DNA from: Anadara kagoshimensis
Lineage: Eukaryota > Mollusca > Bivalvia > Arcoida > Arcidae
Direction: 5' to 3'
DNA: 64,000 nt
Assembly: GCA_021292105.1 (NCBI GenBank)
Contig: CM037863.1
Location: 11,910,546 to 11,974,545 of the forward strand
Positions 2,944 through 45,482 of the stretch are shown here, one piece after another. The position numbers and the translations under genes were made by a program. How positions within the stretch are numbered: the first letter of the stretch is position 1; every line of letters begins with the position of its first letter. Under the pieces are notes generated by a model. That model made no database searches, had not been told where the DNA came from, and saw only the letters and a program-made list of their open reading frames with translations.

Positions 2944-3466
2944 CAGGCCTGTCGAAAGTTTAATACTGAGAAAAATGAAAGGAGTCGAAACTAAGCAGCC
3001 AAGTGGCCGAGATATGGACAGCTAGTGACCGAAAAGAAATATATAGTAGCAACTAAAAATATGTAGAAATATAAATAACAAGAGGTCAAGAGTTGAGTCG
3101 AGTTGAGTAATGGTGTTTAACGTCTCAGTCAAGAATATTTCACTTATATCGAAACGTCGCCAGCTATAGGCGAAGGTGCAGAAACTTTGCCTGTGCGTTG
3201 CGCTGATGGCATTATACAGCAGGGTTCTTTAGCATGCCAAGCCCACCGTGACACAGGACCTCGTTTATTTTAAGTTCCCATCAGAAAGAACCATGATTTT
3301 CATTTCGTAATGTCGGAAAGAACAGCCACTACCAACTTTCAAGTCTTGGGTCAGACCCCGCCGGGGATCGAACCCATGACCTCCCACATACGGAACGAGC
3401 ACTCTACCGACTAAGCTACCGCAAGAGGTCAAGATGAGCTGTCTATTCAGCAATTAGCTCGACAGC
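2944..3466 (+). mobile_element. CAGT MITE hosting a SINE and starting the satellite
   Basis: The left end (CAGGCCTGTCGAAAGTTTAA) begins just inside the left arm. The interior continues through GTGGCCGAGATATGGACAGC, is broken by the SINE at 3092-3422, resumes, and reaches the right end TTAAACTTTCGACAGGTCTG at about 3474-3493. That right end is the first satellite unit, so this MITE looks like the seed of the array. Confidence 0.7.
3092..3422 (-). mobile_element. tRNA-derived SINE (CAACT-tail family) with 12-bp TSD
   Basis: The minus strand reads tRNA-like head, body, and a tail related to CAACT repeats. The head includes TAGCTTAGTCGGTAGAG (A-box region) and GGTTCGATCCC (B box). It is flanked by the exact 12-bp repeat AAGAGGTCAAGA at 3080-3091 and 3423-3434, a target-site duplication typical of LINE-mobilised SINEs. 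It inserted in the CAGT MITE. The open frame at 3265-3453 (minus) is the SINE itself. Confidence 0.85.
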
Positions 3467-12400: not shown

Positions 12401-15400
12401 GAAATGAGCTGCCGAAATTTGATATCTTAGTGTTAAACTTTCGACAGGTCTGTACTGTAGCTAGCAAGGAGCTGAAATGAGCTGCCGAAATTCGATATCT
12501 TTGTGATAAACTTTCGACAGGTCTGTACTGTAGCTAGCAAGAAGCCGAAATGAGCTGCCGAAATTCGATACCTAAGTGTTCAACTTTCGACAGGTCTGTA
12601 CTGTAGCTAGCATGGAGCCGAAAGTGCTGCCGAAATTCGATATCTTAGTGTTAAACTTTCGACAGGTCTGTACTGTAGCTAGCATGGAGCCGAAAGTGCT
12701 GCCGAAATTCGATATCTTAGTGTTTAAACTTTCGACAGGCCTGTACTGTAGCTAGCATGGAGCCGAAATGAGCTGCCGAAATTCGATATCTTAGTGTTAA
12801 ACTTTCGACAGGTCTGTACTGTAGCTAGCAAGGAGCGAAATGAGCTGCCGAAATTCGATATCTTATTGTTAAACTTTCGAGAGGTTGTACTTTAGCTAGC
12901 AAGGAGCCGAAATGAGCTGCCAAAATTCGATATCTTAGTGTTAAACTTTCGACAGGTCTGTACTGTAGCTAGCAAGGAGCCGAAATGAGCTGCCAAAATT
13001 CGATATCTTAGTGTTAAACTTTCGACAGGCCTGTACTGTAGCTAGCATGGAGGCCGAAATGAGCTACCGAAATTCGATATTAGTGTTAAACTTTCGACAG
13101 GTCTGTACTGTAGCTAGCAAGGAGCCGAAATGAGCTGCCAAATTCGATATCTTAGTGTTAAACTTTCGAGAGGCTTGTACTTTAGCTAGCAAGGAGCCGA
13201 AATGAGCTGCCAAAATTCGATATCTTAGTGTTAAACTTTCGACAGGTCTGTACTGTAGCTAGCAAGGAGCCGAAATGAGCTGCCAAAATTCGATATCTTT
13301 GTGATAAACTTTCGACAGGTCTGTACTGTAGCTAGCAAGGAGCCGAAATGAGCTGCCGAAATTCGATATCTTAGTGTTAAACTTTCGACAGGTCTGTACT
13401 GTAGCTAGCATGAAGCCGAAATGAGCTGACGAAATTCGATATCTTAGTGTTAAACTTTCGACATGCCTGTACTGTAGCTAGCAAGAAGCCGAAATGAGCT
13501 GCCGAAATTCGATATCTTAGTGTTTAACTTTCGACAGGCTTGTACTGTAGCTAGCAAGGAGCCGAAATGAGCTGCCAAAATTCGATATCTTAGTGTTAAA
13601 CTTTCGACAGGCTTGTACTTTAGCTAGCAAGGAGCCGAAATGAGCTGCCGAAATTCGATATCTTAGTGTTAAACTTTCGACAGGCTTGTAATTAGCTACA
13701 AGGAGCCGAAATGAGCTGCCGAAATTCGATATCTAAGTGTTAAATTTCGACAGGCCTATACTGCAGCTAGCAAGGAGCCGAAATGAGCTACCGAAATTCG
13801 ATATATTTGTGTTAAACTTTCGACAGGCCTGTACTGTAGCTAGCATGGAGCCGAAATGAGCTGCCGAAATTCGTTGTCCTTTGTGTTAAATTTTCGACAG
13901 GCCTGTACTGTAGCTAGCATGGAGCCGAAATGAGTTGGCCGAAATTCGATATCTTAGTGTTTAACTTTCGACAGGTCTGTACTGTAGCTAGCATGGAGCC
14001 GAAATGAGCTGCCGAAATTTGATATTTTAGTGTTAAACTTCGACGGTCTGTACTGTAGCTAGCAAGGAGCTAAAGCGCTGCCGAATTCGATATCTTAGTG
14101 TTAAACTTTCGACAGGTCTGTACTGTATCTAGCATGGAGCCGAAATGAGCTGCCGAAATTCGATATCTTTGTGATAAACTTTTGACAGCATCTGTACTGT
14201 AGCTAGAAGGAGCCGAAAATGAGCTGCCGAAATTCGATATCTTAGTGTTAAACTTCCGACAGGTCTGTACTGTAGCTAGCAAGGAGCCGAAATGAGCTGC
14301 CGAAATTCGATATCCTTGTGATAAACTTTCGACAGGTCTGTACTGTAGCTAGCAAGGAGCCGAAATAGCTTCCGAAATTCGATATCTTAGTGTTAAACTT
14401 TCGACAGGTCTGTACTGTAGCTAGCAAGGAGCCGAAATGAGCTGCCGAAATTCGATATCTTAGTGTTAAACTTTCGACAGGTCTGTACTGTAGCTAGCAA
14501 GGAGCTGAAATGAGCTGCCGAAATTCGATATCTTAGTGTTAAACTTTCGACATGTCTGTACTGTAGCTAGCAAGGAGCCGAAATGAGCTGCCGAAATTCG
14601 ATATCTTAGTGTTAAAACTTTCGACAGATCTGTACTGTAGCTAGCAAGGAGCTGAAATGAGCTGCCGAAATTCGATATCTTTGTGATATAACTTTCGACA
14701 GTCTGTACTGTAGCTAGCAAGAAGCCTAAATGAGCTGCCGAAATTCGATATCTTAGTGTTAAACTTTCGACAGGCCTGTACTGTAGCTAGCAAAGAGCCG
14801 ATATGAGCTGCCGAAAATTCGATATCTTAGTGTAAACTTTCGACAGGTCTGTACTGTAGCTAGCATGGAGGCCGAAATGAGCTGACGAAATTCGATATCT
14901 TAGTGTTAAACTTTCGACATGCCTGTACTGTAGCTAGCAAGAAACCGAAATGAGCTGCCGAAATTCGATATCTTAGTGTTTAACTTTCGACAGGCCTGTA
15001 CTGTAGCTAGCATGGAGCCGAAATGAGCTGCCGAAATTCGATATCTTAGTGTTAAACTTTCGACAGGTCTGTACTGTAGCTAGCAAGGAGCCGAAATGAG
15101 CTGCCGAAATTCGATATCTTAGTGTTAAACTTTCGAGAGGCTTGTACTTTAGCTAGCAAGGAGCCGAAATGAGCTGCCAAAATTCGATATCTTAGTGTTA
15201 AATTTTCGACAGGTCTGTACTTGTAGCTAGCAAGGAGCCGAAATGAGCTGCCAAAATTCGATATCTTAGTGTTAAACTTTCGACAGGCCTGTACTGTAGC
15301 TAGCATGGAGCCGAAATGAGCTACCGAAATTCGATATCTTAGTGTTAAACTTTCGACAGGTCTGTACTGTAGCTAGCAAGGAGCCGAAATGAGCTGCCGA

Positions 15401-18400
15401 AATTCGATATCTTAGTGTTAAACTTTCGAGAGGCTTGTACTTTAGCTAGCAAGGAGCCGAAATGAGCTGCCAAAATTCGATATCTTAGTGTTAAACTTTC
15501 GACAGGTCTGTACTGTAGCTAGCAAGGAGCCGAAATGAGCTGCCAAAATTCGATATCTTTGTGATAAACTTTCGACAGGTCTGTAATGTAGCTAGCAAGG
15601 AGCCGAAATGAGCTGCCGAAATTCGATATCTTAGTGTTAAAACTTCGACAGGTCTGTACTGGTAGCTAGCATGGAGCCGAAATGAGCTGACGAAATTCGA
15701 TATCTTAGTGTTAAACTTTCGACATGCCTGTACTGTAGCTAGCAGAAGCCGAAATGAGCTGCCGAAATTCGATATCTTAGTGTTTAACTTTCGACAGGCT
15801 TGTACTGGTAGCTAGCAAGGAGCCGAAATGAGCTGCCAAAATTCGATATCTTAGTGTTAAACTTTCGACAGGCTTGTACTTTAGCTAGCAAGGAGCCGAA
15901 TGAGCTGCGAAATTCGATATCTTAGTGTTAAACTTTCGACAGGCTTGACTTTAGCTATCAAGGAGCCGAAATGAGCTGCCAAAATTCGATATCTTAGTGT
16001 TAAACTTTCGACAGGCCTGTACTGTAGCTAGCAAAGAGCCGATATGAGCTGCCGAAAATTAGATATCTTAGTGTTTAACTTTCGACAGGCCTGTACTGTA
16101 GCTAGCAAGGAGCCGAAATGAGCTGCCAAAATTCGATATCTTAGTGTTAAACTTTCGACAGGCCGTACTGTAGCTAGCGAAGAGCGATATGAGCTGCCGA
16201 AATTCGTATCTTAGGTTTAACTTTCGACAGGCCTGTACTGTAGCTAGCAAGGAGCCAAAATGAGCTGCCAAAATTCGATATCTTAGTGTTAAACTTTCGA
16301 CAGGTCTGTACTGGTAGCTAGCAAGGAGCCGAATGAGCTGCCAAAATCGATATCTTAGTGTTAAAACTTTCGACAGCCTGTACTGTAGCTAGCAAAGAGC
16401 CGATATGAGCTGCCGAAATTCGATATCTTAGTGAAACTTTCGACAGGTCTGTAGTAGCTAGCATGGAGCCGAAATGAGCTGACGAAATCGATATCTTTAG
16501 TGTTAAACTTTCGACATGCCTGTACTGTAGCTAGCAAGAAACCGAAATGAGCTGCCGAAATTCGATTCTTAGTGTTTAACTTTCGACAGGCTTGTACTGT
16601 AGCTAGCAAGGAGCCGAAATGAGCTGCCGAAATTCGATATCTTAGTGTTAAACTTTCGACAGGTCTGTACTGAAGCTAGCAAGGAGCTGAAATGAGCTGC
16701 CGAAATTCGATATCTTTGTGATAAACTTTCGACAGGTCTGTACTGTAGCTAGCAAGAAGCCGCAAATGAGCTGCCGAAATTCGATACCTAATGTTCAACT
16801 TTCGACAGTCTGTACTGTAGCTAGCATGGAGCCGAAAGTGCTGCCGAAATTCGATATCTTAGTGTTAAACTTTCGACAGGCCTGTACTGTAGCTAGCAGG
16901 AGCCGAAATGAGCTGCCGAAATTCGATATCTTAGTGTTAAACTTTCGACGGTCTGTACTGTAGCTAGCAAGGAGCCGAAATGAGCTGCCGAAATTCGATA
17001 TCTTAGTGTTAACTTTCGAGAGGCTTGTACTTTAGCTAGCAAGGAGCCGAAATGAGCTGCAAATTCGATATCTTAGTGTTAAACTTTCGACAGGTCTGTA
17101 CTGTAGCTAGCAAGGAGCCGAAATGAGCTGCCAAAATTCGATATCTTTGTGATAAACTTTCGACATGGTCTGTACTGTAGCTAGCAAGGAGCCGAAATGA
17201 GCTGCCGAAATTCGATATCTTAGGTTAAACTTTCGACAGGTCTGTACTGTAGCTAGCATGGAGCCGAAATGAGCTGACGAAATTCGATATCTTAGTGTTA
17301 AACTTTCGACACGCCTGTACTGTAGCTAGCAAGAAGCCGAAATGAGCTGCCGAAATTCGATATCTTGTGTTTAACTTTCGACAGGCTTGTACTGTAGCTT
17401 AGCAAGGAGCCGAAATGAGCTGCCAAAATCGATATCTTAGTGTTAAACTTTCGACAGGCTTGTACTTAGCTAGCAGGAGCCGAAATGAGCTGCCGAAATT
17501 CGATATCTTAGTGTTAAACTTTCGACAGGATTGTACTTTAGCTATCAAGGAGCCGAAATGAGCTGCAAAATTCGATATCTTAGTGTTAAACTTTCGACAG
17601 GCCTGTACTGTAGTCAAAGAGCCGATATGAGCTGCCGAAATTAGATATCTTAGTGTTTAACCTTTCGACAGGCCTGTACTGTAGCTAGCAAGGAGCCGAA
17701 ATGAGCTGCCAAAATTCGATATCTTAGTGTTAAACTTTCGACAGGCCTGTACTGTAGCTAGCGAAGAGCCGATATGAGCTGCCGAAATTCGATATCTTAG
17801 TGTTTAACTTTCGACAGGCCTGTACTGTAGCTAGCAAGGAGCCGAAAATGAGCTGCCAAAATTCGATATCTTAGTGTTAAACTTTGACAGGTCTGTACTG
17901 TAGCTAGCAAAGGAGCCGAAATGAGCTGCCAAATTCGATATCTTAGTGTTAAACTTTCGACAGGCCTGTACTGTAGCTAGCAAAGAGCCGATATGAGCTG
18001 CCGAAATTCGATATCTTAGTGTTAAACTTTCGACAGGTCTGTACTGTAGCTAGCATGGAGCCGAAATGAGCTGACGAAATTCGATATCTTAGTGTTAATT
18101 TTTCGACATGCCTGTACTGTAGCTAGCAAGAAACCGAATGAGCTGCCGAAATTCGATATCTTAGTGTTTAACTTTCGACAGGCTTGTACTGTAGCTAGCA
18201 AGGAGCCGAAATGAGTGCCAAAATTCGATATCTTAGTGTTAAACTTTCGACAGGTCTGTACTGTAGCTAGCAAGGAGCTGAAATGAGCTGCCGAAATTCG
18301 ATATCTTTGTGATAACTTTCGACAGGTCTGTACTGTAGCTAGCAAGAAGCCGAAATGAGCTGCCGAAATTCGATACCTAAGTGTTCAACTTTCGACAGGT

Positions 18401-21400
18401 CTGTACGTAGCTAGCATGGAGCCGAAAAGTGCTGCGAAATTCGATATCTAGGTTAAACTTCGACAGCCTGTACTGTAGCTAGCAAGGAAGCCGAAATAAG
18501 CCGCCGAAATTCGATATCTTAGTGTTAAACTTTCGACATGTCTATACTGTAGCTAGCAAGGAGCCGAAATAAGCTGCTGAAATTCGATATCTTTGTGTTA
18601 AACTTTCGACAGGTCTGTACTGTAGCTAGCAGGAGCCGAAATGAGTGCCCGAAATTCGAATCTTTATGTTAAAATTTCGACAGGTCTGTACTGTAGCTAG
18701 CAAGGAGCCGAAATGAGCCGGGAAATTCGACTATCTTAGTGTTAAATTTCGACAGGCCTGTACTGTAGCTAGCAAGGAGCCGAAATAAGCCGCCGAAATT
18801 CGATATCTTAGTGTTAAACTTTCGACATATCTATACTGTAGCTAGCAAGGAGCCGAAATAGCCGCCGAAATTTGATATCTTAGTGTTAAACTTCGAAGGT
18901 CTGTCCTGTAGCTAGCAAGGAGCCGAAATGAGCTGCCGAATTTGATTATCTTAGTGTTTAAACTTTCGACATGCCTGTATTGTAGCTAGCAAGGAGCCGA
19001 AATGAGCTGCTGAAATTCGATATCTTAGTGTTAAACATTCGACATGTCTATACTGTAGCTAGCAAGGAGCCGAAATAAGCAGCCGCCGAAATTTGATATC
19101 TTAGTGTTAAACTTTCGACAGGTATGTACTGTAGCTAGCAAGGAGCCGAAATGAGCTGCTGAAATTCGTATCTTAGTGTTAAACATTCGAATGCTGTATG
19201 TAGCTAGCAAGGAGCCGAAATGAGCTGCTGAAATTCGATATCTTAGTGTTAAACATTCGACAGGTCTGTCCTGTAGCTAGCAAGGAGCCGAAATGAGCTG
19301 CCGAAATTCGATATCCTTAGTGTTAACTTTCGACAGGTCTGTACTGTAGCGAGCAAGGAGCCGAAATGAGCTGCCGAAATTCGATATCTTAGTGTTAAAC
19401 TTTCGACAGGTCTGTACTGTAGCTAGCAAGGAGCCGAAATGAGCTGCTGAATTCGATATCTTAGTGTTAAACATTCGACATGCCTGTATTGTAGCTAGCA
19501 AGGAGCCGAAATGAGCTGCTGAATTCGATATCTTAGTGTTAAACATTCGACATGCCTGTATTGTAGCTAGCAAGGAGCCGAAATGAGCTGCTGAAATTCG
19601 ATATCTTAGTGTTAAACATTCGACATGCCTGTATTGTAGCTAGCAAGGAGCCGAAATAAGCCGCCGAAATTCGATATCTTAGTGTTAAACATTCGACAGG
19701 TCTGTCCTGTAGCTAGCAAGGAGCCGAAATGAGCTGCCGAAATTCGATATTCTTAGTGTTAACTTTCGACAGGTCTGTACTGTAGCTAGCAAGGAGCCGA
19801 AATGAGCTGCTGAAATTCGATATCTTAGTGTTAAACATTCGACATGCCTGTATTGTAGCTAGCAGGAGCCGAAATGAGCTGCTGAAATTCGATATCTTAG
19901 TGTTAAACATTCGACATGCTGTATGTAGTAGCAAGGAGCCGAAATAAGCCGCCGAATTCGATATCTTAGTGTTAAACATTCGACAGGTCTGTCCTGTAGC
20001 TAGCAAGGAGCCGAAATGAGCTGCCGAAATTCGATATCTTAGTGTTAAACTTTCGACAGGTCTGTACTGTAGCTAGCAGAGCCGAAATGAGCTGCCAAAA
20101 TTCGATATCTTAGTGTTAAACTTTCGACAGGTCTGTACTGTAGCTAGCAAGGAGCCGAAATGAGCTGCCAAAATTCGATATCTTAGTGTTAAAATTCGAC
20201 AGGGTCTGTCCTGTAGTAGCAAGGAGCCGAAATGAGCTGCCGAAATTCGATATCTTAGTGTTAAACTTTCGACAGGTCTGTACTGTAGCTAGCAAGGAGC
20301 CGAAATGAGCTGCCGAAATTCGATATCTTAGTGTTAAACTTTCGACAGGTCTGTACTGTAGCTAGCAAGGAGCCGAAATGAGCTGCTGAAATTCGATATC
20401 TTAGGTTAAACATTCGACATGCCTGTATTGTAGCTAGCAAGGAGCCGAAATGAGCTGCTGAAATTCGATATCTTAGTGTTAAACATTCGAACATGCCCTG
20501 TATTGTAGCTAGCAGGAGCGAAATGAGCTGCTGAAATTCGATATCTTAGTGTTAAACATTCGACATGCCTGTATTGTAGCTATGCAAGGAGCCGAAATAA
20601 GCGCCGAAATCGATATCTTAGTGTTAAACATTCGACAGGTCTGTCCTGTAGCTAGCAGGAGCCGAAATGAGCTGCCGAAATTCGATATCTTAGTGTTAAA
20701 CTTTCGACAGGTCTGTACTGTAGCTAGCAAGGAGCCGAAATGAGCTGCTGAAATTCGATATCTTAGTGTTAAACATTCGACATGCCTGTATTGTAGCTAG
20801 CAAGGAGCCGAAATGAGCTGCTGAAATTCGATATCTTAGTGTTAAACATTCGACATGCCTGTATTGTAGCTAGCAAGGAGCCGAAATAAGCCGCCGAAAT
20901 TCGATATCTTAGTGTTAAACATTCGACAGGTCTGTCCTGTAGCTAGCAAGGAGCCGAAATGAGCTGCCGAAATTCGATATCTTAGTGTTAAACTTTCGAC
21001 AGGTCTGTACTGTAGCTAGCAAGGAGCCGAAATGAGCTGCCGAAATTCGATATCTTAGTGTTAAACTTTCGACAGGTCTGTACTGTAGCTAGCAAGGAGC
21101 CGAAATGAGCTGCCGAAATTCGATATCTTAGTGTTAACTTTCGACAGGCTTGTACTGTAGCTAGCAAGGAGCCGAAAATGAGCTGCCGAAATTCGATATC
21201 TTTGTGATAAACTTTCGACATGCATGTACTGTAGCTAGCAAGGAGCCGAAATAGGCTGCCGAAATTCGATATCTTTGTGATAAACTTTCGAAAGGTCTGT
21301 ACTGTAGTTAGCAAGGAGCCGAAATGAGCTGCCGAAATTCGATATCTTTGTGATAAACTTTCGACAGGTCTGTATGTAGCTAGCAAGAAGCCGAAATGAG

Positions 21401-23098
21401 CTGCCGAAATTCGATATCTTAGTGTTAAACTTTCGACAGGTCTGTACTGTAGCTGCAAGGAGCTGAAAGAGCTGCCGAAATTCGATATCCTTGTGATAAC
21501 TTTCGCAGGTCTGTACTGTAGCTAGCAAGGAGCCAAATGAGCTGCCGAAATCGATATCTTAGTGTAAACTTTCGGACAGGTCTGTACTGTAGCTAGCAAG
21601 GAGCCGAAATGAGCTGCCGAAATTCGATATCTTAGTGTTAAACTTTCGACAGGTCTGTACTGTAGCTTGCAAGGAGCTGAAATGAGCTGCCGAAATTCGA
21701 TATCTTAGTGTTAACTTTCGACAGGTCGTACTGTAGCTAGCAAGGAGCCGAAATGAGCTGCCGAAATTCTAAATCTTAGTGTTAAACTTTCGACAGATCT
21801 GTACTGTAGCTAGCAAAGGAGCTGAAATGAGCTGCCGAAATTCGATATCTTAGTGTTAAACTTTCGACATGCCTGTATGTAGCTAGCAGGAGCTGAAATG
21901 AGCTGCCGAAATTCGATATCTTAGTGTGAAACTTTCGACAGGCCTCTACTGTGGCTAGCAAGGAGCAGAAATGAGCTGCCAAAATTCGATATCTTAGTGT
22001 TAAAACTTTCGACAGGTCTGTACTGTAGCTAGCAAGGAGCCGAAATGAGCTGCCAAAATTCGATATTTAGTGTTAAACTTCGACAGGTCTGTACTGTAGC
22101 TAGCAAGGAACCGAAAATGAGCTGCCGAAATTAAATATTAGTGTTAAACTTTCGACAGGTCTGTACTGTAGCTAGCAAGGAACGAAATGAGCTGCCGAAA
22201 TTAGATATCTTAGTGTTAAACTTTCGACAGGTCTGTACTGTAGCTAGCAAGGAACCGAAATGAGCTGCCGAAATTCGATATCTTAGTGTTAAACTTTCGA
22301 CAGGCCTGTACTGTAGCTAGCAAGGAGCCGAAATAAGCCCGCCGAAATTCGATATCTTAGTGTTAAACTTTCGACAGGTCTGTACTGTAGCTAGCAAGGA
22401 GCCGAAATAAAGCCGCCGAAATTCGATATCTTAGTGTTAAACTTTCGACAGGTCTGTACTGTAGCTAGCAAGGAGCCGAAATAAGCCGCCGAAATCGATA
22501 TCTTAGGGTTAAACTTTCGACATGTCTATACTGTAGCTAGCAAGAAGCCAAATAAGCGCCGAAATCGAATATCTTAGTGTTAAATTTTCGACATGCCTGT
22601 ACTGTAGCTAGCAAGGAGCCGAAATAAGCCGCCGAAATTCGATTCTTAGTGTTAAACTTTCGACAGTCTGTTACTGTAGCTAGCAAGGAGCCGAAATAAG
22701 CCGCCGAAATTCGATATCTTAGTGTTAACTTTCGACAGGCCTGTACTGTAGCTAGCAAGGAGCCGAAATGAGCTGCCGAAATCGATATCTTAGTGTTTAA
22801 ACTTTCGACAGGTCTGTACTGTAGCTAGCAAGGAGCCGAAATAAGCCGCCGAAATTCGATATCTTAGTGTTAAACTTTCGACAGGCCTGTACTGTAGCTA
22901 GCAAGGAGCCGAATGCGCTGCCAAAATTCGATATCTTAGTGTTAAACTTTCGACAGGCTGTACTGTAGCTACAAGGAGCCGAAATAACCGCCGAAATTCG
23001 ATATCTTAGTGTTAACTTTCGACAGCCTGTACTGTAGTAGAAGGAGCCGAATGAGCTGCCGAATTCGATATCTTAGTGTTAAAACTTTCGACAGGTAG
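3466..23098. repeat. 73-bp satellite array, about 270 monomers
   Basis: A monomer of 73 bp repeats head to tail for 19.6 kb. The landmarks in order are TAGTGTTAAACTTTCGACAG, GTCTGTACTGTAGCTAGCAA, GGAGCCGAAATGAGCTGCCG and AAATTCGATATCT. The period is exact in the left part: successive TAGTGTT starts fall at 3541 and 3614. Variants define local subfamilies: CAGCTCTG at about 4720-5170, TTTGTGATAAAC units, AGAGGCTTGTACTTT units, and AACATTCGACATGCC units at about 19000-20930. The monomer equals the terminal part of the CAGT MITE (compare 25608-25680). All open frames in the array are by-products: 73 is not a multiple of three and no codon pattern is conserved. Confidence 0.97.
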
Positions 23099-35458: not shown

Positions 35459-35557
35459 GTACAGACCTGACGAAATTTTAACACTAAGCTGACAAATTAT
35501 TGCTAATTATAAACCGACATCTCAACTCAAACCCATATCGGCAACTTTTCGTCTGCT
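35459..35557. mobile_element. CAGT MITE split by the LINE (left piece)
   Basis: The left end ACAGACCTGACGAAATTTTA starts near 35460 and MITE interior continues to the LINE target at 35543-35557. MITE-like interior resumes after the LINE (CTATTTATCTCTTTTCGGTC at 45483-45503), but its right end is not recognisable. Confidence 0.6.
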
Positions 35558-35914
35558 GGAAAATGGAACAACATTCAAAAGTGCTGAGCACCTATACCAA
35601 TTTAAAAAGGCATCCTTTTTTAAATATCATCAACTGGCAAAAGACATTTTATATGCACAGACAGCAAAAGATGCAAAGTCTTTATCGAAATTTATACCGA
35701 AATCACACATATCATTAGAATGGTATAAAAAGAAGTTATTATGAAATGTATCCTGTATATAAAATATGAGCAAGTACCGGAATTCCGTAAAGCTTTATAC
35801 GATACATTAAACTGTACTTTGCCGCACGAATATTGGGGAACAGGAAAACATGATTTGGGGAAAAACCAATTTGGAAAACTGTTAATGAAAATTAGAAATG
35901 AAAAGTTTGAATGA
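35558..35914 (+). pseudogene. LINE ORF1 remnant: NADAR (YbiA-like) domain
   Basis: Frame one (from 35559) reads FKSAEHLYQFKKASFF, then a stretch with AKDAKSLSKFIPKSH and LEWYKKK. After a one-base shift near 35738 the frame continues with YEQVPEFRKALYDTL, then YWGTGKHDLGKNQFGKLLMK and IRNEKFE, ending at a stop at 35912-35914. These are the landmarks of NADAR domains: S-x-EH-x-YQ with the conserved glutamate, a W..K helix, EFR-x-AL, WG-x-G, and GKN-x-x-GKLLM. NADAR proteins are known from YbiA-type N-glycosidases and from enzymes that remove ADP-ribose from guanine in DNA. The beginning of the domain is missing because the LINE was truncated there on insertion. Reading: the domain is part of ORF1 of this LINE family. 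Alternative: a host fragment carried along. Confidence 0.75.
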
Positions 35915-35981
35915 AACAAAGTCTCGCTCCACGCACTTGTAGTATACTATAGATGTTTATATATGAAAGATGATAATAAAT

Positions 35982-36027
<46 letters not shown>

Positions 36028-36971
36028 GTGTACTTACACTATTGATCCATGAAAAGACAGTCATACACCACGAAAAGTACCCTTCTCCGTTGTGAAGAAT
36101 AATAATAATACATGGTATTTAAATTCCATATTCACGAAAGTACCATGATATAAACTTTAGTTCCCACATTGATATAATCACGCCGGACAAACTGCTATCC
36201 TTTCGGTTCAGATTTTGCTATCCACATGTTTGACACGCGTACAGACACTATTTTTTTTACATAACTTATATTATTGTGAAACCTGTTTGGAAGTTCAGTT
36301 AAATTATTTAGCTGCAGTTCTAGTAAAGTGAAGTAACGGCGGTATATAGTCCGATCACCTGTAGCGATCTACTGTGTATAACAGTGGAACCCGACCTACT
36401 AATTCTGGTCCTGTCATTGACTTACGAATCAATGAGCATGTGCACAAGTAACACAAGTGTGTCTGATTGTCTGTCTGGAAGTTTGTCTTTTTTGTACATA
36501 GATGTAGATGTAAGTGCGTGTATTTGTTAATATATGTATGTTTGGTCTATGTACACATGTATATTGTTATAGTTTTTAATCTAGAAGTATTCACGTGACA
36601 AATTTGGGTCAGACCGGCTACAAACATATTTATGGTCCGCGATACTTTTGTCTCTTTTTTTGGAAAATATTAGATTCACGCGATAATTAACGCTCGCGAA
36701 TACTTTAAGATTAAAGTTATACGTTTGTAGATAATGTACATATGAAATAGACATATAATATATAATTTTTTGTTTTGGCACTATATTTTTAAAGGTCTTA
36801 CTTATAATACCACGAGCTTCAGCCTTACTGAATTCATAGAAATAACGGAAGTTAGTCATATAGACTACTTTGGGGGAAATATGGGGGGTCAAAATATAAG
36901 AAAAATCTATCTTCCTGTATCAAAACCCTCAGTCATCCTTTACGGTTCAACATTTTCTCACTTTATTACTG
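35915..36971. other. LINE inter-ORF spacer with (GT)n
   Basis: Holds a GT microsatellite (about 35982-36023) and AT-rich sequence. It is long for a LINE spacer, so a further insertion is possible, but I see no ends. The frame at 36770-37000 runs into ORF2 in another frame and is not convincing. Confidence 0.45.
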
Positions 36972-37676
36972 TTGATGGAAAACAATTTAAAAATAGGTAG
37001 TTTAAACTGTAGGGGGCTTTTTTCCGATAAAATTAAGAGGCGGGATATTTTTTATAGATGTAGAAAAAATTATGACATTACCTTTCTCATCGATACTCAT
37101 TCTACTAAGGAAATAGAATCCTATTGGAAAAACGAATGGGGAGGTACCGTAAGGTTTTGCTCTTTCACCAGCAACAGTCGGGGAGTTGCAATTCTCTTTA
37201 GAGCCTCTTTTCAGTTTACAATAATTGACGAAATTATTGATCCACAGGGCAACTTTTTACTTTTAAATTTGGAAACACAGAATAGAAAATTTACTTTGGC
37301 TGCTGTTTACGGACCAAATACTGATCAACCACTTTTTTATCAACGTCTTATGAAAAATATAAATATTTTTAATAATACTTCAATAATTAATGGCGGAGAC
37401 TTTAATATAGCATTGGATTACGATTTGGATACTATCAATTATATCAATAAGAATAACCCAAAATCTCAACAAAAACTTTTAGACCTAATGAATGAGTTCG
37501 ATCTTGTAGATATTTGGAGAGAATTAAATCCTGAAATAAGAAGGTACACTTGGCGAGGCCCAAAAGAAAAACGTCAAAAAATGAGCAGATTAGATTACTT
37601 TTTGATATCTGTAGATTTAAAACCTTTTTTAAAGAATGCTGACATTGATATATGTTACAAATCTGACCTCTCCGGT
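36972..37676 (+). pseudogene. LINE ORF2, AP endonuclease domain
   Basis: About 235 codons give an exonuclease-endonuclease-phosphatase fold enzyme, the nickase that starts target-primed reverse transcription. Landmarks: GSLNCRGL (residues 8-15, catalytic Asn), a THST segment where the metal-binding acid normally lies, AAVYGPN, NGGDFNIALDYD (catalytic Asp and Asn), and SRLDYFLIS. The final SDHSP motif is broken: the frame reads SDLSG and stops, while the next frame starts at SPVNIELKF. This fits a two-base loss that removed the catalytic histidine codon. MMENNLKIG is the likely ORF start. Confidence 0.85.
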
Positions 37677-39250
37677 TAATATAGAATTGAAATTTTTAGA
37701 ACATGAAAAAGGGCGGGGTACCTGGAAATTTAACAACGGACTACTTTATGATAAAAAATATGTAGATATTGTAAAGAACTGTATTAAAGAAACTTGTGAA
37801 CAATATTTAGTAAACACTGAAAATGGATTAGATCCGAAATACTCAATAAATGACCAACTCCTCTGGGAAACAATAAAACTGAATCTGCGAGGAAAAACAA
37901 TTTCATATGCTTCATATAAAAAGAAAATTAGTATGGAAAAAGAAAAAAATCTTGAAAAGAAACTTAAAATTCTATATATTGACGAATGTGAAATATCTCG
38001 AAATAAAATTGAAAATGTAGAAAATGAACTAAAACAATTAAGGGACGAAAAAATAAGGGGTCTTATTATGAAGTCAAAAGCGAAATGGATGGTAGAGGGG
38101 GATAAAAGTAGTAAATTTTTTTGTAACTTAGAAAAAAGACATTATGTTGAGAAAACAGTGTCAAAATTAATTTTAAATGATGGAACAGAAATAGAAAATC
38201 AAGGTGATATTTTAAACGCTCAAAAAGATTTCTATCAAAATTTATATACATCTCAAAATTTACAGGGGGCGGTAAAGAAAATATTTTTTGATATTGATAA
38301 TATCTTCCTGAATCGTCTCGAAGAAACAGTTTCAGGGGCCCTTGGCGGAGAACTTAAAGATAGTGAATGTACTAATGCATTGCACAATATGAAAAATGGA
38401 AAATCACCGGGGCTTGATGGATTTACCATCGAATTTTACAAATACTTTTGGACTGATATACGGGAATACGTGGTTAAATCTTTAAATTATGGATATAGAC
38501 ATGGGGAACTTTCTATAACGAGCGCAGAGACAAGGTGTCATCACATGCATTCCAAAAGAGGGGAAATCTAAATTTTATATGAAAAATTGGCGACCAATCT
38601 CTTTACTTAATGCTGACTATAAAATTGCATCAACAGCTATTGCTAACAGAATAAAATCAATCTTAAACCAAATTATAAGTGAAACACAGACGGGATTTAT
38701 TAAAGGTAGATTTATAGGGGAAACAACTCGTTTATTATATGACATTATAGAAAAAACAGAAGAAGAAAATATTCCTGGTATTCTTTTACTTCTTGATTTT
38801 GAAAAAGCCTTTGATTCCATAGAGTGGTCATTTATTGAAATATCACTCAAATTCTTTGGTTTTTGTGACTCAATTATTAAGTGGTTTTTTACTTTTTATT
38901 CTGATATAACAAGTTGCACTCAATACAATGGGCATTGTTCTGGTTTCTTTCCAATTCAAAGAGGGGTTAGACAAGGAGATCCTCTATCACCCTACCTGTT
39001 TATTATCTGTGCTTAATCACTCAGTGCAGCGATTAAACAAGATCCAAAAATTAAGGGTATTAAAATAAACGACTCTGAACATCTTGTGGGTCAATATGCA
39101 GATGATACTAGCCTCACACTTGATGATGACTCTGAATCCCTTAATGCGGTAATTAAACTAATAGACGATTTCGGCGACTGTTCTGGTTTAAGAGCAAATT
39201 TTGATAAAACAGAAGTGGTATGGATTGGGGCGAAAAGGGGATGCGGCGAG
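37636..39250 (+). pseudogene. LINE ORF2, reverse transcriptase domain
   Basis: The linker (FLEHEKGRGTWKFNN, then KAKWMVEGDKSSKFF) leads to RT block GKSPGLDGFTIEFYK at about 38398-38442. A frame change near 38518 breaks the reading. It resumes with NWRPISLLNADYKI, QTGFIKGR, LLLDFEKAFDSIEW (first catalytic Asp), and RGVRQGDPLSPYLF. A TAA at 39014-39016 replaces a sense codon, and the frame goes on with GQYADDTSLTL (the YADD catalytic pair) and GLRANFDKTE. It is cut at 39253 by the TIR element. The RT fold and its catalytic residues are otherwise complete. Confidence 0.9.
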
Positions 39251-39596
39251 GAATAGACCCCTTTCACATTCAAATGCGCATGCCCTGTATCTACTGACGA
39301 CAGCGAAATTTCTAGACTAAGTCTCGCGCGAATTTACAAAACCTCGCGGGATTTTGTTCCAGGGGGCAAGTGCGCGAGTGAGACAATGGCATAAAATGGA
39401 CTGCCAGGCAAGCATTAAAAAAATGTCCTTCCTCGCAAAACGACTCAGATTAGATCGGTCTGTATTTTCAAGTACTAATTTCGAACACGTGATTCACACA
39501 AAAACAATAACAACAATGGCGGCGCCCATGTGTTTTGGCGAAAACAAGATGGGTTGGGACTAGGCCTAGCTAGTAATCGCGATTAGAACTACGTTA

Positions 39597-39803
39597 CAGA
39601 CCTGTCGAAAGTTTAACACTGAGCTAACGAAGTTAATTCGACGCTAGAAAGAAAAAGCTGTTGAGATAAGCATAGCAGCTGCCCAAAATTGTCGAGATAT
39701 ATACAGCTGATATACAGATATATGTAAGAAACTACAGGAATTAGCCAGATTTGGGACCAATATTCGGTAACTTATTGTTAAATTTTCGACAGGACTGTAC
39801 TTT
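39597..39803. mobile_element. CAGT MITE inside the TIR element
   Basis: The left end CAGACCTGTCGAAAGTTTAA, then CACTGAGCTAACGA, and the right end TTAAATTTTCGACAGGACTG are present. Its outermost bases (GTACA) are missing on the left. It is the innermost layer of the nest. Confidence 0.7.
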
Positions 39804-41773
39804 ATACACACGTGAACGTTACCCGAACTAAATTTCTTATGGCGTATCTTTATGATAATTGTCACATAACACTACCGCTAAACTGCTAAATCTTGTTAGT
39901 GGAATAATTTTGGTTAGGTCATACTGCATCATGAATGAGTTAGGAAGAGACAAGTTATATTTTTCTGATTTAGGTAGATCTAGTAAAAATAAGATTTTTT
40001 TTATTTTAAAGTTTAATTGATATTTGGAATCTTCCTTCCTTTTAACAAAATAAACAAAACTTATTTTTTCCACTCCAAATCAGCAACATTTAGGTTAAAA
40101 TTTTTATTTCTTCAGAGTATTACATCAGTTCACCAGAACTCCATGTGTACACAGAGTTAGGGCTGGGTACATGTATCATTCTATTGCAAAAAAAAAAAAA
40201 ACTGATGGACCATACATTTTAATATTTAAAATAAGCACATTTTCCACACAAAAAAAATAATAATAATGAAAAATAAATAAAATTAAAATAGTGGGCTAAA
40301 TCCAAATGACTGCCTGGTCATGTATCAAAGGATCACCTTCAAACTGCCAACAGTGGTTAGAGCATGAGCCTATACAGACACTGGGACAGTGCTGAGCTAT
40401 CAGCTGAAATTTCCAAAACTGTAACAGCCTTCTTTATTTTCAATTTATCCACCTGCATATATACAATATATTGGTGCAAAGAGGAGTCTAGATTTGCATT
40501 CTCTGTCAAGTATTGTATTTTAATTATTTATGACTGAATAAAGCCATCTTACCAGTTGTATGGAGATAACCAAACCCATCTCACCAGTTGTATGGAGATA
40601 ACCAATCTATTATAAAGAATGAGCCTATATGGCACAAAGACAAAGTGGTAATCAGTTTGAATATAAAATAACAGTATACACCACACCAATCAGTCTTACT
40701 TGGTCACCCATTTCTAAATGAGGCATTATCATTGGCAGAAAATTAAATGCAAATTTGGTTTTATGTTTTTCAATGCAGCTCAACTGTTCAAAGTGTATGT
40801 ACAACAAAATGTGCAAAATAGCAAGAACCAACAAAATGTGCAAAATAGCAAGAACCAAGCTGAAAATCAAGAAGATTGGGTTTCAAAATCAGTAGTGTTA
40901 CATTACAAAAGGGTTGTATCTAAATCTAAAATCCCCATCCATATTCACTAAAAGTTTGTTTTATTAACAAATTCAACACCTCAGTTATGCCAAACACAAA
41001 GGTACACAGAAAAGAGCTTTCATAAATAATTCTAAATTGACATTTTCTGCCTCCAAAATCAACAAATTTATAATCAGTCAAATCACTGAAACTAGTAAAT
41101 CCCAACTGAATTTAAAAGGACATGATTGTCATTTAATTTTAATTTAAGTGGGTATTCTTTAAAAGTATAGTGTTGGATTTACATATTTGATTCCAGTTTT
41201 ACAATCATTTCTCAATTGCAACTTAAAAGATTTTCCTTAATTGAAATCTGACAACTTTTGACAATAATTTTATACAAATAAAGTTTCAACAAAATTGGAA
41301 TATAAATGTAAAAAACTTAAGAATGATCTTCTTAATGACAACTTAAATTTATGGATTTCTTGAATACTAAATAAAATATTAAGCTTTCAAATTTGCTAAA
41401 TTCAAGTTGAGGAAAATCTCAAATAAGGAATGACTGGAACCAGCAGAATTTTCATATCTAGATGCAATAGTAACCACTTCCATTTCTCAGGTCTTGTATT
41501 CAAACACAAAAGCCATTTACAGAACAAATACTCTACCAAAGAAGCTTCTCTAGTTGTAATTTGATACAAAATGCCACTATATGTATTTCACACAAATATT
41601 GTATATAAATACCATGAAGAATTGGTTTTTACAATCCACTGGTAAATATACATTACCGACTTGCCAATATAAGCTTACATAAATACTAAGAAGCATATAT
41701 GGAGCCCGACTGCCAGTACATGTATGGAATAATCTTTGTAAGGGCAGTGCAAGCATGCATACATCTTGGATGC

Positions 41774-42130
41774 AGTATAGCTTTGACTGGCCAGTATGTA
41801 AACAGTACAGCTTTGACTGGCCAGTATGTAAACAGTACAGCTTTGACAGACCAGTATGTTTACAGTTTAGCTTTGACAGGCCAGTATGTATACAGTATAG
41901 CTTTGACAGGCCAGTATGTATACATTATAGCTTTGACGGGCTAGTATGTTTACAATTTAGCTTTGACCAGCCAGTATGTATACAGTACAGCTTTGACGGG
42001 TCAGTATGTTTACAGTTTAGCTTTGACTGGTCAGTAGCTACACAGTATAGCTTTGACAGGTCAGTATGTACACAGTACAGCTATGGCTGGCCAGTGCAAT
42101 TGTGCATTAATCTTGACTGGCCAGTGTAAA
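41774..42130. repeat. 30-bp minisatellite, about 12 copies
   Basis: Unit AGCTTTGACAGGCCAGTATG, then TATACAGTAT, with point variants. Thirty is a multiple of three, so frames such as 41755-42129 stay open with a ten-residue period. I regard those as by-products. The flanks (40080-41770 and 42131-42580) are AT-rich, with a 27-bp pair at about 40800-40856. Confidence 0.9.
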
Positions 42131-42616
42131 ACTCAGTAGATTTTGACAAAGAAGTGTAAGCATGGTTTTTCTCTTGGTATGTCAGTATAATATTATATAT
42201 TATATAAATACTGTCAAGCTATAGCTAGGGCAAGATTTAGTAAATCTTGCTTGGGCAGTGGAGTATGATAAACATATATCTTAGCAGCTAGAATAAGGCT
42301 ACATGGATACAGCTAGGCCAGAATAGACTGGTTTGGTGGGAGCAGATATGTATGGTATAGCTTTTGACAGGCTAACATTGGTCCACATAATAACATGTTA
42401 AGACACCAGTTATAAAAATCAAAACAATGGATATAATGAAATAAAAATTATTAAATGATGTTTTAGTTTTGAAGGCACTAGTAACAAGTACTGTTCAGAC
42501 AGTGGACTCCTTCACTGAAAGCTTCAGTGTTGAATCTTAGATTTTTTTCAGAATGGGTCATTTTCAAAACTTTTATCTAAAACATCATGATATTAATATT
42601 TTGCATTAATGTTTTA

Positions 42617-42910
42617 TCAAATATGGCTACTAAGGTCTTAACAATAGTGCCATTTGTGCAAAATAAGGGGGTCAATGTGCCTTCTAGAATGAACACCGCC
42701 CGTCTTATGTTCTGCGATTCATTATTTCACAATGGATCAAATAATTTCTTTCTGTTCTACCAAATGACCACTTGTCGATACCCAGGGAAAGGAAAAGACA
42801 GCCTCACCCCGTCGTGGTTAGTCTGTTACTGTCCCGTCACAACTAAACCAATATCGGGGGAGGGGTATCCTAACCTGTCAGACGACACTATCTGGAATGG
42901 AATTAAATGA
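42617..42910 (+). CDS. Unrecognised frame in the TIR element
   Basis: An open frame with an internal start MATKVLTIVPF at about 42623 and a mixed, non-repetitive composition (several Cys, Pro, Trp, for example PSWLVCYCPVTTKP). It ends at 42910. GC content is higher than in the AT-rich middle, which suggests it was once coding. I recognise no family. Together with the next frame it may be what is left of a spliced gene of this element. Confidence 0.3.
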   Translation, partial: SNMATKVLTIVPFVQNKGVNVPSRMNTARLMFCDSLFHNGSNNFFLFYQMTTCRYPGKGKDSLTPSWLVCYCPVTTKPISGEGYPNLSDDTIWNGIK

Positions 42911-42925
42911 GTAATATAAGTTTTA

Positions 42926-43105
42926 ATGGCTACCGCTTTTACAGGTGAACATAATCGTTCTTCTCGCTTTGGCTTTACGTCGATGGATGGTCAAATCGGC
43001 GACACATTTATGTTTAAACCAGTGAACATCAAACGTCCATGCTATTTACTATGTAAAGCGAAAGTAGACTTGCCCCCTGAGCTGATAAAAGAGTTCCGAT
43101 TTTAG
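42926..43105 (+). CDS. Unrecognised 59-codon frame near the right TIR
   Basis: ATG at 42926, stop at 43103-43105. It contains SRFGFTSMDGQIGDTF and ends in VDLPPELIKEFRF. A possible acceptor (TTTTACAG then GTGAAC) lies just inside, so it could be a last exon rather than a whole gene. The stop is 58 bp from the TIR end. Family unknown. Confidence 0.3.
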   Translation: MATAFTGEHNRSSRFGFTSMDGQIGDTFMFKPVNIKRPCYLLCKAKVDLPPELIKEFRF

Positions 43106-43165
43106 GGGAGATAACCGCGTTTGGCAAAATTTAGCGCGTGCGCATTGGAATGTGAAAGGGGTCTA

Positions 43166-44289
43166 TTACAAATGTATAAATATCTAAAATGGAATCACAC
43201 CGGTACTTTTAAACTTTTGGGGATTAAATACAACTTACAGTCCAAATTATTTTACATGGAAAACTATACTGAAAAAATATCATCCTTTAAAAATATTCTA
43301 AGCAACTGGTCTTATCGAAATTTGTCTTTGATGGGAAAAGTAACAGTTGTGAAGACAATAGCACTACCAATACTAATACAGACGTTTATGACTCTTCCGG
43401 ATCCTCCAAAAATTATGATTGACGATATACAAGCTACTATTTTTAATTTTATTTGGAATGGAAAAGTTGAAAAAATAAAACGAAAAATTATGTACAATGA
43501 TCTTGCAGAGGGGGACTTCGTGTTCCACATATCGAGTCTTTTTATAGTGCGCTTAAGATGACATGGGTAAAAAAAATTATAGATCCTCATAATAATTCAG
43601 CATGGAAAATTCTACTATTAGATTCGCTAGAAAAATTTGGAGGGGACAAAATGTTTTTTTTCCAGAAAGAAGGTATTGAAAAATGTTCAAAACACTTCAA
43701 CTCATTTTGGAAAGATGTATTTCTTAATTGGTCAAGATTGAATAAACCCGTAGCCGCATCCCCAAATGACATTCTTTCTCAGACTCTCTGGTACAACCCA
43801 TATATTAAAATTGATAATGAAATGGCTTTCTTTAAGAAAATGGCTAAAAACGATATCTATTTCATCAATGACATTATTGATGAAAATGGGGATATCTTGA
43901 GCTGCAGAGACTGTAACCAAAAATACAACACTGCAATTAATCCTTTTAATTACATAAGTTTAATACACGCGATACCAAAAACATGGAAAAATATTTTAAA
44001 AGAGAACTTTCAAAAAAAGAGGTTAAGCATGATAATATACAGTATCTAAAAACACACGAAAAAATTACGAAATTTTGCTATAATTTAGTTTTGAAAACAG
44101 TTACAGAAAAACCCATAAAAACTCAGGAAACTTTAAATAAATAAGAAACTCGAGAATCATATTGATGAAAATGTCTGGAAACAAATATATAAATCACCTT
44201 TCGAAATCACTAGCGACTCAAAATTACAGTCTTTGCAGTTCAAGATAAACCATAATATAATATTATATAAATATTACATTTCTGATAGG
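43166..44289 (+). pseudogene. LINE ORF2, region after the RT core
   Basis: The LINE reading resumes: NHTGTFKLLGIKYNLQ, RNLSLMGKVTVVKTIALP and IFNFIWNGK are the usual RT-thumb and connection landmarks. A one-base change near 43510 shifts to MTWVKKIIDPHNN and the C-terminal half of the protein (LWYNPYIKIDNE, YISLIHAIPKTWK). Another shift near 44020 leads to QYLKTHEKITKFCYN. The reading stops at the second insertion (44296). Confidence 0.85.
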
Positions 44290-44295
44290 ATGACA

Positions 44296-44957
44296 GTCTA
44301 TATTGTCACCCCGAGAAATTTCATTGTCAACCGAGGCGAAAAATGTAATATTTATTTTATTATACCGATTGTTGGTTTTTATTATACTGTGCAATCAAAG
44401 TATACTGGAATGACAACCATGATTCTGAAATACATTTAGAAAACATTTTCCAAAACATTTATTTTCCGCGCCGAGAAATTCTCTAAATAAGCTTACGCTC
44501 CTTTTAACTGTTCTTTGTGTATTTTTGGCATCTTTCTGTTCAGTTAACTGCTTAAGGGTTTCTTCGTTAACAGTGGCAAATCTACTTATTGACATTTTCG
44601 GCCCGACAGTCAGCTGTCGTCAGGTAAACAACTCATCTACTCATCTTGACGCTTGTAACATAAATCATATGTAACATTACTGTAGAAAAACGTTTTACTG
44701 ATTTAGAAGAAGGATGCGTTCGAACCGCATACGCAGTTTTTCTGCGCATGTGACATTCTTTTTAATGTCAACCGCTCAGCTAATGTCACCCTGTGACGTA
44801 AGATTTTCTGAAACCCGAGGGTGACATTAAATTTACCCAAACGCTTATTAACCAATCAAATTGCGAGAAATTTACAAAAGGTATAATAATACAAATTGTT
44901 ACATAGCTCTTATCCAATGAAATTGCTAGATTTTTACATAAGGTGTAATAATTACAA
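44296..44957. mobile_element. 0.66-kb insertion in the LINE tail, ATGACA duplication
   Basis: ATGACA at 44290-44295 and 44958-44963 borders the segment, and the LINE protein reads SDR before it and DKLFKCKLSD after it, so the interior is foreign. Inside, TGTCACCCCGAGAAATTTC (about 44304) is the inverse of GAAACCCGAGGGTGACATTA (about 44811-44831), which could be the true inverted ends. The right 120 bp hold a diverged ~54-bp duplication (ATCAAATTGCGAGAAATTTA; ATGAAATTGCTAGATTTTTA). Confidence 0.65.
44395..44595 (-). pseudogene. N-terminal fragment of a DUF3504/Crypton-like protein
   Basis: The minus-strand frame from 44595 starts MSISRFATVNEETLKQL, then EQKDAKNTQRTVKRSVSLF and REFLGAEN. The pattern 'KD(S/A)KNT-x-R-x-x-K-x-x-x-x-x-F-x-x-(Y/F)L' is the usual N-terminal helix bundle in front of the DUF3504 tyrosine-recombinase domain of Crypton-type elements and the host genes derived from them (KIAA1958, QRICH1 and relatives). 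Only this N-terminal part is present. The following residues (FGKCFLNVFQNHGC) do not match. Recognition is from the sequence pattern, without a search. Confidence 0.55.
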
Positions 44958-44960
44958 ATG

Positions 44961-45375
44961 ACAAACTTTTTAAATGCAAGTTGTCTGATACACAGTTATG
45001 CACTTTCTGTTTTGAAACAAAAGAAACCATGTCACACTTATTTTATGAATGCAGTTTTACCCGCTCAGTTTGGTATGGTCTTTTGGAGGATCTATGTAAA
45101 AATGTGGCATATATATAGACAAAAGAATGGAATATTTTATTTTTGGTGTAATGAGTCACCCTCAAAAATACATAATAAACCTCTGTTCCCTGATAATAAA
45201 AAACTACATATATATATATAGATTCAGAAAGACCATACCAAACTACAAAACTGCCTTAAAGTCAGTAAAGCAGTACAGAGATATTGAGTTATTTTCTTTA
45301 TTTATGTTCAGCCCCAAAAAAGCAAATAATATAAGAAGGCAATGGAATCTTATTAAATCTTTGTTAGATAGTTAA
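44961..45375 (+). pseudogene. LINE ORF2 C-terminus with zinc knuckle
   Basis: From 44961 the reading DKLFKCKLSDTQL goes into CTFCFETKETMSHLFYEC, the CxxC-x(7)-H-x(4)-C knuckle found near the end of many LINE ORF2 proteins (zf-RVT type). A frame change follows near 45113 and the ORF ends with FIFGVMSHPQKYIINL and FSLFMFSPKKANNIRRQWN, with a stop at 45373-45375. The ~90-bp 3' UTR ends in A-rich sequence at the TSD. Confidence 0.85.
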
Positions 45376-45482
45376 TTTGACTGATGTGTGCTTAAATGTA
45401 TGTTTTTTCTGTAAATTTGTATTATGTATGTGGAAGATAGAATAAAAAACTATTAATACCAAAAAAAAACTTTTCGTCTGCT

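Follow-up and report, generated by a model that had tools for sequence, protein, structure and literature searches.

NADARs strip ADP-ribose from DNA guanine, eukaryotic members included (PMC11543638), and NADARs outside the bacterial toxin-antitoxin pairs have no known role in animals (PMC11125620). LINEs that bear a NADAR domain are as such not new. Work on Ectocarpus transposons published in 2025 mentions in passing that several Tx1 LINE families of the oyster seem to have NADAR in their ORF1 proteins (PMC12477816), which answers the question whether such elements are already described, raised by a sequence-only reading of the locus analysed here. The Crassostrea gigas Tx1 LINEs (Repbase) and the elements of Anadara kagoshimensis described below have in common that a NADAR is found in an L1/Tx1-type LINE, in the oyster a YbiA-type NADAR reported as part of ORF1; the accessible sections of the oyster account name neither a separate coiled coil ORF1 nor an intron or an alternative exon, the two systems being compared by description (PMC12477816). 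A NADAR-carrying LTR element is likewise a retroelement, but there the NADAR is located in Pol and not on the RNA-packaging protein. NADARs are also present in other selfish elements, namely RNA viruses, NCLDVs and phages, and the parts of the source at hand propose that they counter host ADP-ribosylation (PMC9503650). These viral NADARs are free-standing or located in polyproteins (PMC9503650), whereas those described here lie within a LINE. With regard to splicing, human LINE-1 and the SpIREs derived from it likewise show L1-type ORF1p and ORF2p and a donor and an acceptor within the LINE (PMC5860796). Splicing of human L1 is described as inhibitory, and SpIREs as in general dead ends, with ORF1p variants that do not function (PMC5860796); in the Anadara LINEs, in contrast, family after family retains both sites, and splicing would yield a frame that encodes an enzyme fusion. 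In the open-licence literature we found mention neither of a NADAR exon nor of a LINE ORF1 with productive alternative splicing, and in the part of the mollusc LINE literature that was covered the word NADAR is absent.

The window, by which we mean the whole analysed stretch of 64,000 nucleotides (contig CM037863.1, positions 11,910,546 to 11,974,545), harbors on its forward strand a 5'-truncated and decayed L1-like LINE. It is an ordinary LINE insertion with the marks of target-primed insertion, i.e., a 15-bp target-site duplication, a short A tail and a truncation at position 35558. The 5' copy of the duplication (AACTTTTCGTCTGCT) is located at 35543..35557 (+), directly before the LINE, and an exact 15-base repeat, the 3' copy, is found at 45468..45482 (+), overlapping the A tail at its beginning. 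In a DNA search of the same genome with 35493-39257, in which 40 of 599 candidates were scored and 42 matches obtained, two other copies match the window from 35558 on with 97-98% identity over 3.7 kb. Since the match of these copies begins where the duplication ends, the 5' truncation lies inside the NADAR exon. This exon comprises 35558..35914 (+) and is frame-shifted, running first in the frame of 35493-35741 and then in that of 35729-35911; the window copy lacks the splice acceptor, which in fuller copies is located ahead of the point of truncation. Downstream on the same strand follows ORF2, with the endonuclease (EN) part at 36900..37679 (Exo_endo_phos 4.8e-4, which is below the cut-off; 59% identity to the EN of the LINE family F1), the frame-shifted linker at 37633..38571 (an open frame, collinear with the copy L051) and the first part of the reverse transcriptase (RT) at 38519..39254 (RVT_1, 4.4e-26 and 3.6e-4). 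A later insertion at 39255..43164 splits the LINE, the homology of which restarts at 43165, so that a further portion of ORF2 is present at 43165..44272 (+; 98.3% to L051 6251-7351). A second later insertion of 0.67 kb, near the LINE 3' end, occupies the gap between the LINE matches at 44273..44945, and the 3' end of ORF2, the 3' UTR and the short A tail are located at 44946..45472 (+; 98.5% to L051 7338-7863). Because the alignment with L051 consists of three blocks, namely 35558-39254 (97.6%) and the two just given, the window copy was truncated inside NADAR and later split by the two insertions. The position of NADAR directly after the 5' target-site copy, its orientation shared with EN and RT, and the truncation point inside the domain are thus as the sequence-only reading had described them. 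The copy does not end in the RT, as the LINE continues beyond both insertions. The first insertion, 3.9 kb in size and with inverted ends AGACCCCTTTCACATTC, is DNA-transposon-like.

The NADAR domain at 35558-35914 is real. Both frame-shifted halves match the Pfam family NADAR (PF08719), the first at 35493-35741 (+; profile 30-79, E 8.9e-8, 33 bits) and the second at 35729-35911 (+; profile 90-161, E 2e-7, 31.8 bits), each of them slightly below the curated cut-off of 35.1 bits as expected for a half-domain, and whole domains elsewhere in the genome reach values down to 1.3e-24, which bears out the earlier assignment. The genome contains 341 NADAR candidates, and all 150 places that were listed exceed the Pfam cut-off; 30 places were cut out with flanks of 1.5 kb, 20 of them also with about 8-9 kb. 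The LINE NADAR matches E. coli YbiA (2b3w) with 8.6e-12 and the Phytophthora NADAR (8bau) with 3.8e-6, and has the active-site Glu and Lys in common with both. These residues (E43 and K50 of the Phytophthora enzyme) were mapped via the 8bau alignment. The active-site row is readable in 29 of 30 loci, and the Lys is present seven residues past the Glu in 29/29, a count that is taken among Glu-bearing rows, as the Glu was a precondition of the filter. At the third catalytic position, for which Glu, Asp and, in phage NADARs, His are known, 28 loci could be read: 23 have His, four of these 23 not being established as LINEs, and the other five have Glu. His is found in the two-exon LINE copies, which differ in this respect from YbiA and the Phytophthora enzyme, and Glu in a second lineage with a CCHC-type ORF1. 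Phage NADARs have a His at this position as well, and the phage and E. coli NADARs that were assayed retained activity, as stated in the available sections of the two sources (PMC11543638, PMC11125620).

In fuller copies of the window lineage ORF1, NADAR and ORF2 follow each other on one strand, with a gap on either side of NADAR. ORF1 is a separate frame of 222-252 codons upstream of NADAR, and a profile of four ORF1s matches human L1 ORF1p (2yko) with 8e-4, spanning the coiled coil and the RRM; a Pfam search of ORF1 gave no match to an ORF1 family. ORF2 consists of EN and RT and is intact in L045 with a frame of 1289 codons. The best named match of the RT is human L1 ORF2p (7.7e-37), and R2 follows at 1.5e-19. 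Judged by EN and RT in ORF2 and by the L1-type RT and ORF1p, the NADAR-bearing elements are L1-like LINEs, the name Tx1 for the group being borrowed from PMC12477816 and not from placement in an RT tree.

NADAR is found downstream of ORF1 on the same strand in 50 of the best 68 out of 150 listed ORF1 places (E up to 4.4e-42), at a distance of 538-1558 bp with a median of 719, and among these 68 no other arrangement of the two occurs within 4 kb. According to our own reading of the F1 exon search, five of the 18 unpaired ORF1 places have a NADAR match as well. The expectation that NADAR lies ahead of ORF2 in longer copies is thus borne out in these 50 places and fails for two places on C14, where ORF1 passes into ORF2 within 17 and 33 bp without NADAR, so that some copies have lost the NADAR segment. 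Seen from the EN side, in a hand-picked sample of 130 listed EN rows starting at query residue 30 or earlier, a NADAR is located at most 4 kb upstream in 15/23 rows with at least 75% identity, in 39/64 with 50-74% and in 5/43 below 50%, all of these counts being lower bounds, since copies truncated at the 5' end and NADAR candidates left unscored are among the rows without a hit. The NADAR-less C14 copies and the mere 5 of 43 distant EN relatives with a detected NADAR demonstrate that NADAR is not universal in the wider LINE clade, and the low last figure suggests that it is typical of one part of it.

Consensus-type 5' and 3' splice sites with matching phase are present in all 11 families in which both sites were read. 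The donor reads /GTGAG in phase 1 (the slash marks the predicted exon border) and is located within ORF1, before the RNA-binding part, throughout at the same codon pair, a Gly encoded by GGT and a Glu encoded by GAG. The acceptor CAG, also in phase 1, sits a few codons before the NADAR core. The motif was derived from the families F1-F4, in which the donor reads CAAG/GTGAG, GAAG/GTGAG or similar, and seven families (F5, F8-F13) were read afterwards as a test, with /GTGAG and CAG both in phase 1 in 7/7. F14 and F15, repeats of F3 and F10, were left out of the count; the family split was made by eye, and the families share ancestry, so that 11 is not a number of independent events. The CAG in phase 1 precedes NADAR in 12 of 12 stretches read (11 families; F6 and F10 alike) and follows a tract that is 65-100% pyrimidine. 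In L051, for example, pyrimidine tract and CAG read TTTTTTTTTCTCTCTCTCTTCAG/ATCCC, and the best-scoring site of the upstream donor scan is AAG/GTGAGC inside ORF1. A donor at the ORF1 stop had also been considered and was dropped, since there is no GT consensus at that place and the conserved donor lies inside ORF1.

In the pooled codon usage of five ORF1s, GGT has a probability of 0.235 among the Gly codons and GAG of 0.381 among the Glu codons, giving a product of 0.09 per family. The chance of GGT GAG thus falls to 3e-12 over eleven families, or to about 5e-8 over the seven test families, if the families are taken as independent, which they are not fully. ORF1 synonymous sites are near saturation between families (pS 0.74-0.84). 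When four ORF1s are aligned codon by codon, 67 degenerate residues are invariant, and 12 of these keep a single codon throughout; among six invariant Gly residues only the donor Gly (GGT) does so, and among nine invariant Glu residues only the donor Glu is GAG in every sequence. In the alignment with human ORF1p the donor coincides with what we take to be the passage from the coiled coil to the RRM, the human domain borders being assumed. Located at this border, splicing would swap the RNA-binding half of ORF1p for NADAR.

Some copies deviate at one of the sites. The donor of the F2 copy L021 reads /GTTAG, a change that at the same time puts a stop into ORF1, the F5 copy L026 has CAAG in place of the acceptor CAG, and in L040, L041, L043, and L045 the donor region is wholly missing. 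L076 and L077, with donors that read /GCCAG and /GCGAG, had been taken as controls and proved to be decayed relatives in which the site is lost. The distant ORF1s without a known NADAR (L071-L078) have no donor site, but they also have no Gly-Glu pair and are therefore a weak control.

These sites argue for an architecture in which NADAR most probably serves as an alternative last exon that is joined to the ORF1 coiled coil. The reading of the window LINE as a whole, a truncated and decayed copy of an element whose NADAR is such an exon, we regard as likely. Unspliced RNA would be the template and the source of ORF2p as well as of the usual ORF1p with its coiled coil, RRM and C-terminal domain. 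In a part of the RNA, as we infer, splicing runs from the GT in ORF1, where the coiled coil ends, to the CAG directly ahead of NADAR, and the product would be a coiled coil-NADAR protein. Through the common coiled coil this fusion could enter ORF1p trimers, so that a glycosidase that removes ADP-ribose would reach the RNA-protein particle of the LINE or the DNA intermediate, where its most likely use would be to take off ADP-ribose added by host enzymes. That a coiled coil-NADAR protein from programmed splicing joins the ORF1p trimer and strips host ADP-ribose from the retrotransposition intermediate is put forward tentatively. Removal of host ADP-ribose as the role of the enzyme is likewise a cautious suggestion. 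Counter-defence by the LINE NADAR is plausible because of the chemistry of NADARs on DNA guanine and the proposals made for viral NADARs. If splicing indeed takes place, a functional intron would have been maintained in many lineages of some LINEs, which would derive from it an enzyme version of the protein that packages their RNA. Should the host-directed role hold as well, a counter-defence enzyme would be both carried and tethered by a non-LTR retrotransposon. Furthermore, a retrotransposon needing NADAR would supply a testable role for animal NADARs, and it would point to nucleic-acid ADP-ribosylation as a host response to retrotransposition.

The same architecture could also serve another target, i.e., the nicked DNA or RNA ends of the LINE itself or a small ADP-ribose product. 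We consider this possible but less likely than not; processing of the LINE's own intermediates is plausible, as is counter-defence. Several N-glycosidic substrates are given for NADARs in the available parts of two sources (PMC9503650, PMC11543638), and RNA processing has been suggested as role in the Ectocarpus and oyster elements (PMC12477816, accessible sections), both in line with such a target; the present evidence does not separate it from counter-defence. Nor does it tell apart the two roles offered by the sequence-only reading, namely reversal of host ADP-ribosylation and processing of the template.

It is improbable that the splice-like sites are incidental and that NADAR forms an unspliced third ORF placed between the other two, the translation of which would rely on re-initiation or on a non-AUG start. 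NADAR does have its own open frame with an upstream stop, and in L027 an in-frame ATG is present upstream of the domain. However, five of the six LINE families for which long flanks were read lack any ATG from the upstream stop to the start of NADAR, and in F4 the stop and the NADAR exon are only seven codons apart. The first Met in the NADAR frame is residue 87 (F4) or 86 (F5) of 146, which is past two catalytic positions. The CAG in 12/12 stretches and the /GTGAG in 11/11 families, both in phase 1, would be left unexplained by a third ORF. As a start codon is missing in most families and both of these phase 1 sites are present, NADAR is probably an exon. A search for spliced genomic copies gave a result that a third ORF would account for: in F1 none of 18 full exon-2 matches joins exon 1 (40 of 48 candidates scored), and in F2 none of eight (16/16 candidates scored). 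For the alternative last exon, the missing spliced copies are compatible with only unspliced RNA being copied and are not evidence for splicing. L026 and L027 contribute the acceptor only, as no ORF1 was found in the further 2.6 kb upstream (L052, L054).

Very improbable is the view that the LINE captured a host exon or a relic of a host gene that has no function for it and that the splice site was inherited from the host gene. A host exon is a plausible source, and there are NADAR places without a LINE part nearby. L033 and L034, a long segmental duplication, have a TAG in phase 1 ahead of the NADAR frame and no match to LINE ORF1 or ORF2; they were excluded from the LINE count, and their NADAR is perhaps a host NADAR gene. 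In L079 (G000:C17:48940430-48940990), as in several similar places, NADAR has its own ATG just ahead and lies in a frame of 335 codons. However, the donor sits within the LINE's own ORF1, and the domain is conserved between LINE families: among F1-F6 pS is 0.63-0.78 versus a pN of 0.18-0.38 (0.74 and 0.18 for the closest pair, F2/F6). Together with the retained catalytic residues this means that NADAR was kept under selection while the LINE lineages diverged. Selection on the domain, for which the sequence-only reading had looked to dN/dS, is thus supported in so far as pN is below pS and Glu and Lys are kept, whereas the saturated synonymous sites yield no dN/dS figure for most pairs.

The weakest explanation, scarcely credible by now, is that NADAR is itself the ORF1 of the LINE and replaces ORF1p, as had originally been claimed: it directly precedes ORF2 in the truncated window copy and belongs to ORF1 in the second lineage, but the L1-type ORF1 upstream of it in fuller copies, in 50 of the 68 top ORF1 places at the distance given above, contradicts this for the window lineage, so that it applies to the second lineage only. 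In this second lineage (L016-L019, L025) NADAR is fused in frame as the C-terminal part of a CCHC zinc-knuckle ORF1, and the EN starts about 70 bp past this ORF1-NADAR frame. The CCHC call is based on weak Pfam scores of 0.0052-0.016, below the cut-off, and partly on what we take to be the CCHC motif. The in-frame CCHC-NADAR arrangement is the one that fits the wording used for the oyster Tx1 ORF1s in the sections at hand (PMC12477816).

Some further NADAR loci and LINE derivatives were observed in the genome. In L001 and L002 (oriented 1405-2424 in L001) NADAR shares one frame of 340 codons with a GDSL-type hydrolase that comes after it (PF13472 3e-7, slightly below the cut-off), and no match to LINE ORF2 is present within 8 kb (L031, L032). 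The NADAR places G000:C11:8402337-8402729 and G000:C5:3149456-3149845 belong to open frames that are 1598 and 1592 codons long, respectively. At four places (L039, L044, G000:C1:11997905, and G000:C1:12910781) the match to the window family ends at the start of ORF2; L039 and L044 then continue with the final 71-95 bp of the element, which makes them short derivatives that kept the ORF1 and NADAR regions and lost most of ORF2. Upstream of ORF1, L051 contains at 575-737 a 74-bp tandem duplication (92%), possibly repeated 5' units. The window itself also harbors a tandem array at 3459-23096, in which a 73-bp unit is repeated about 270 times (92% matches).
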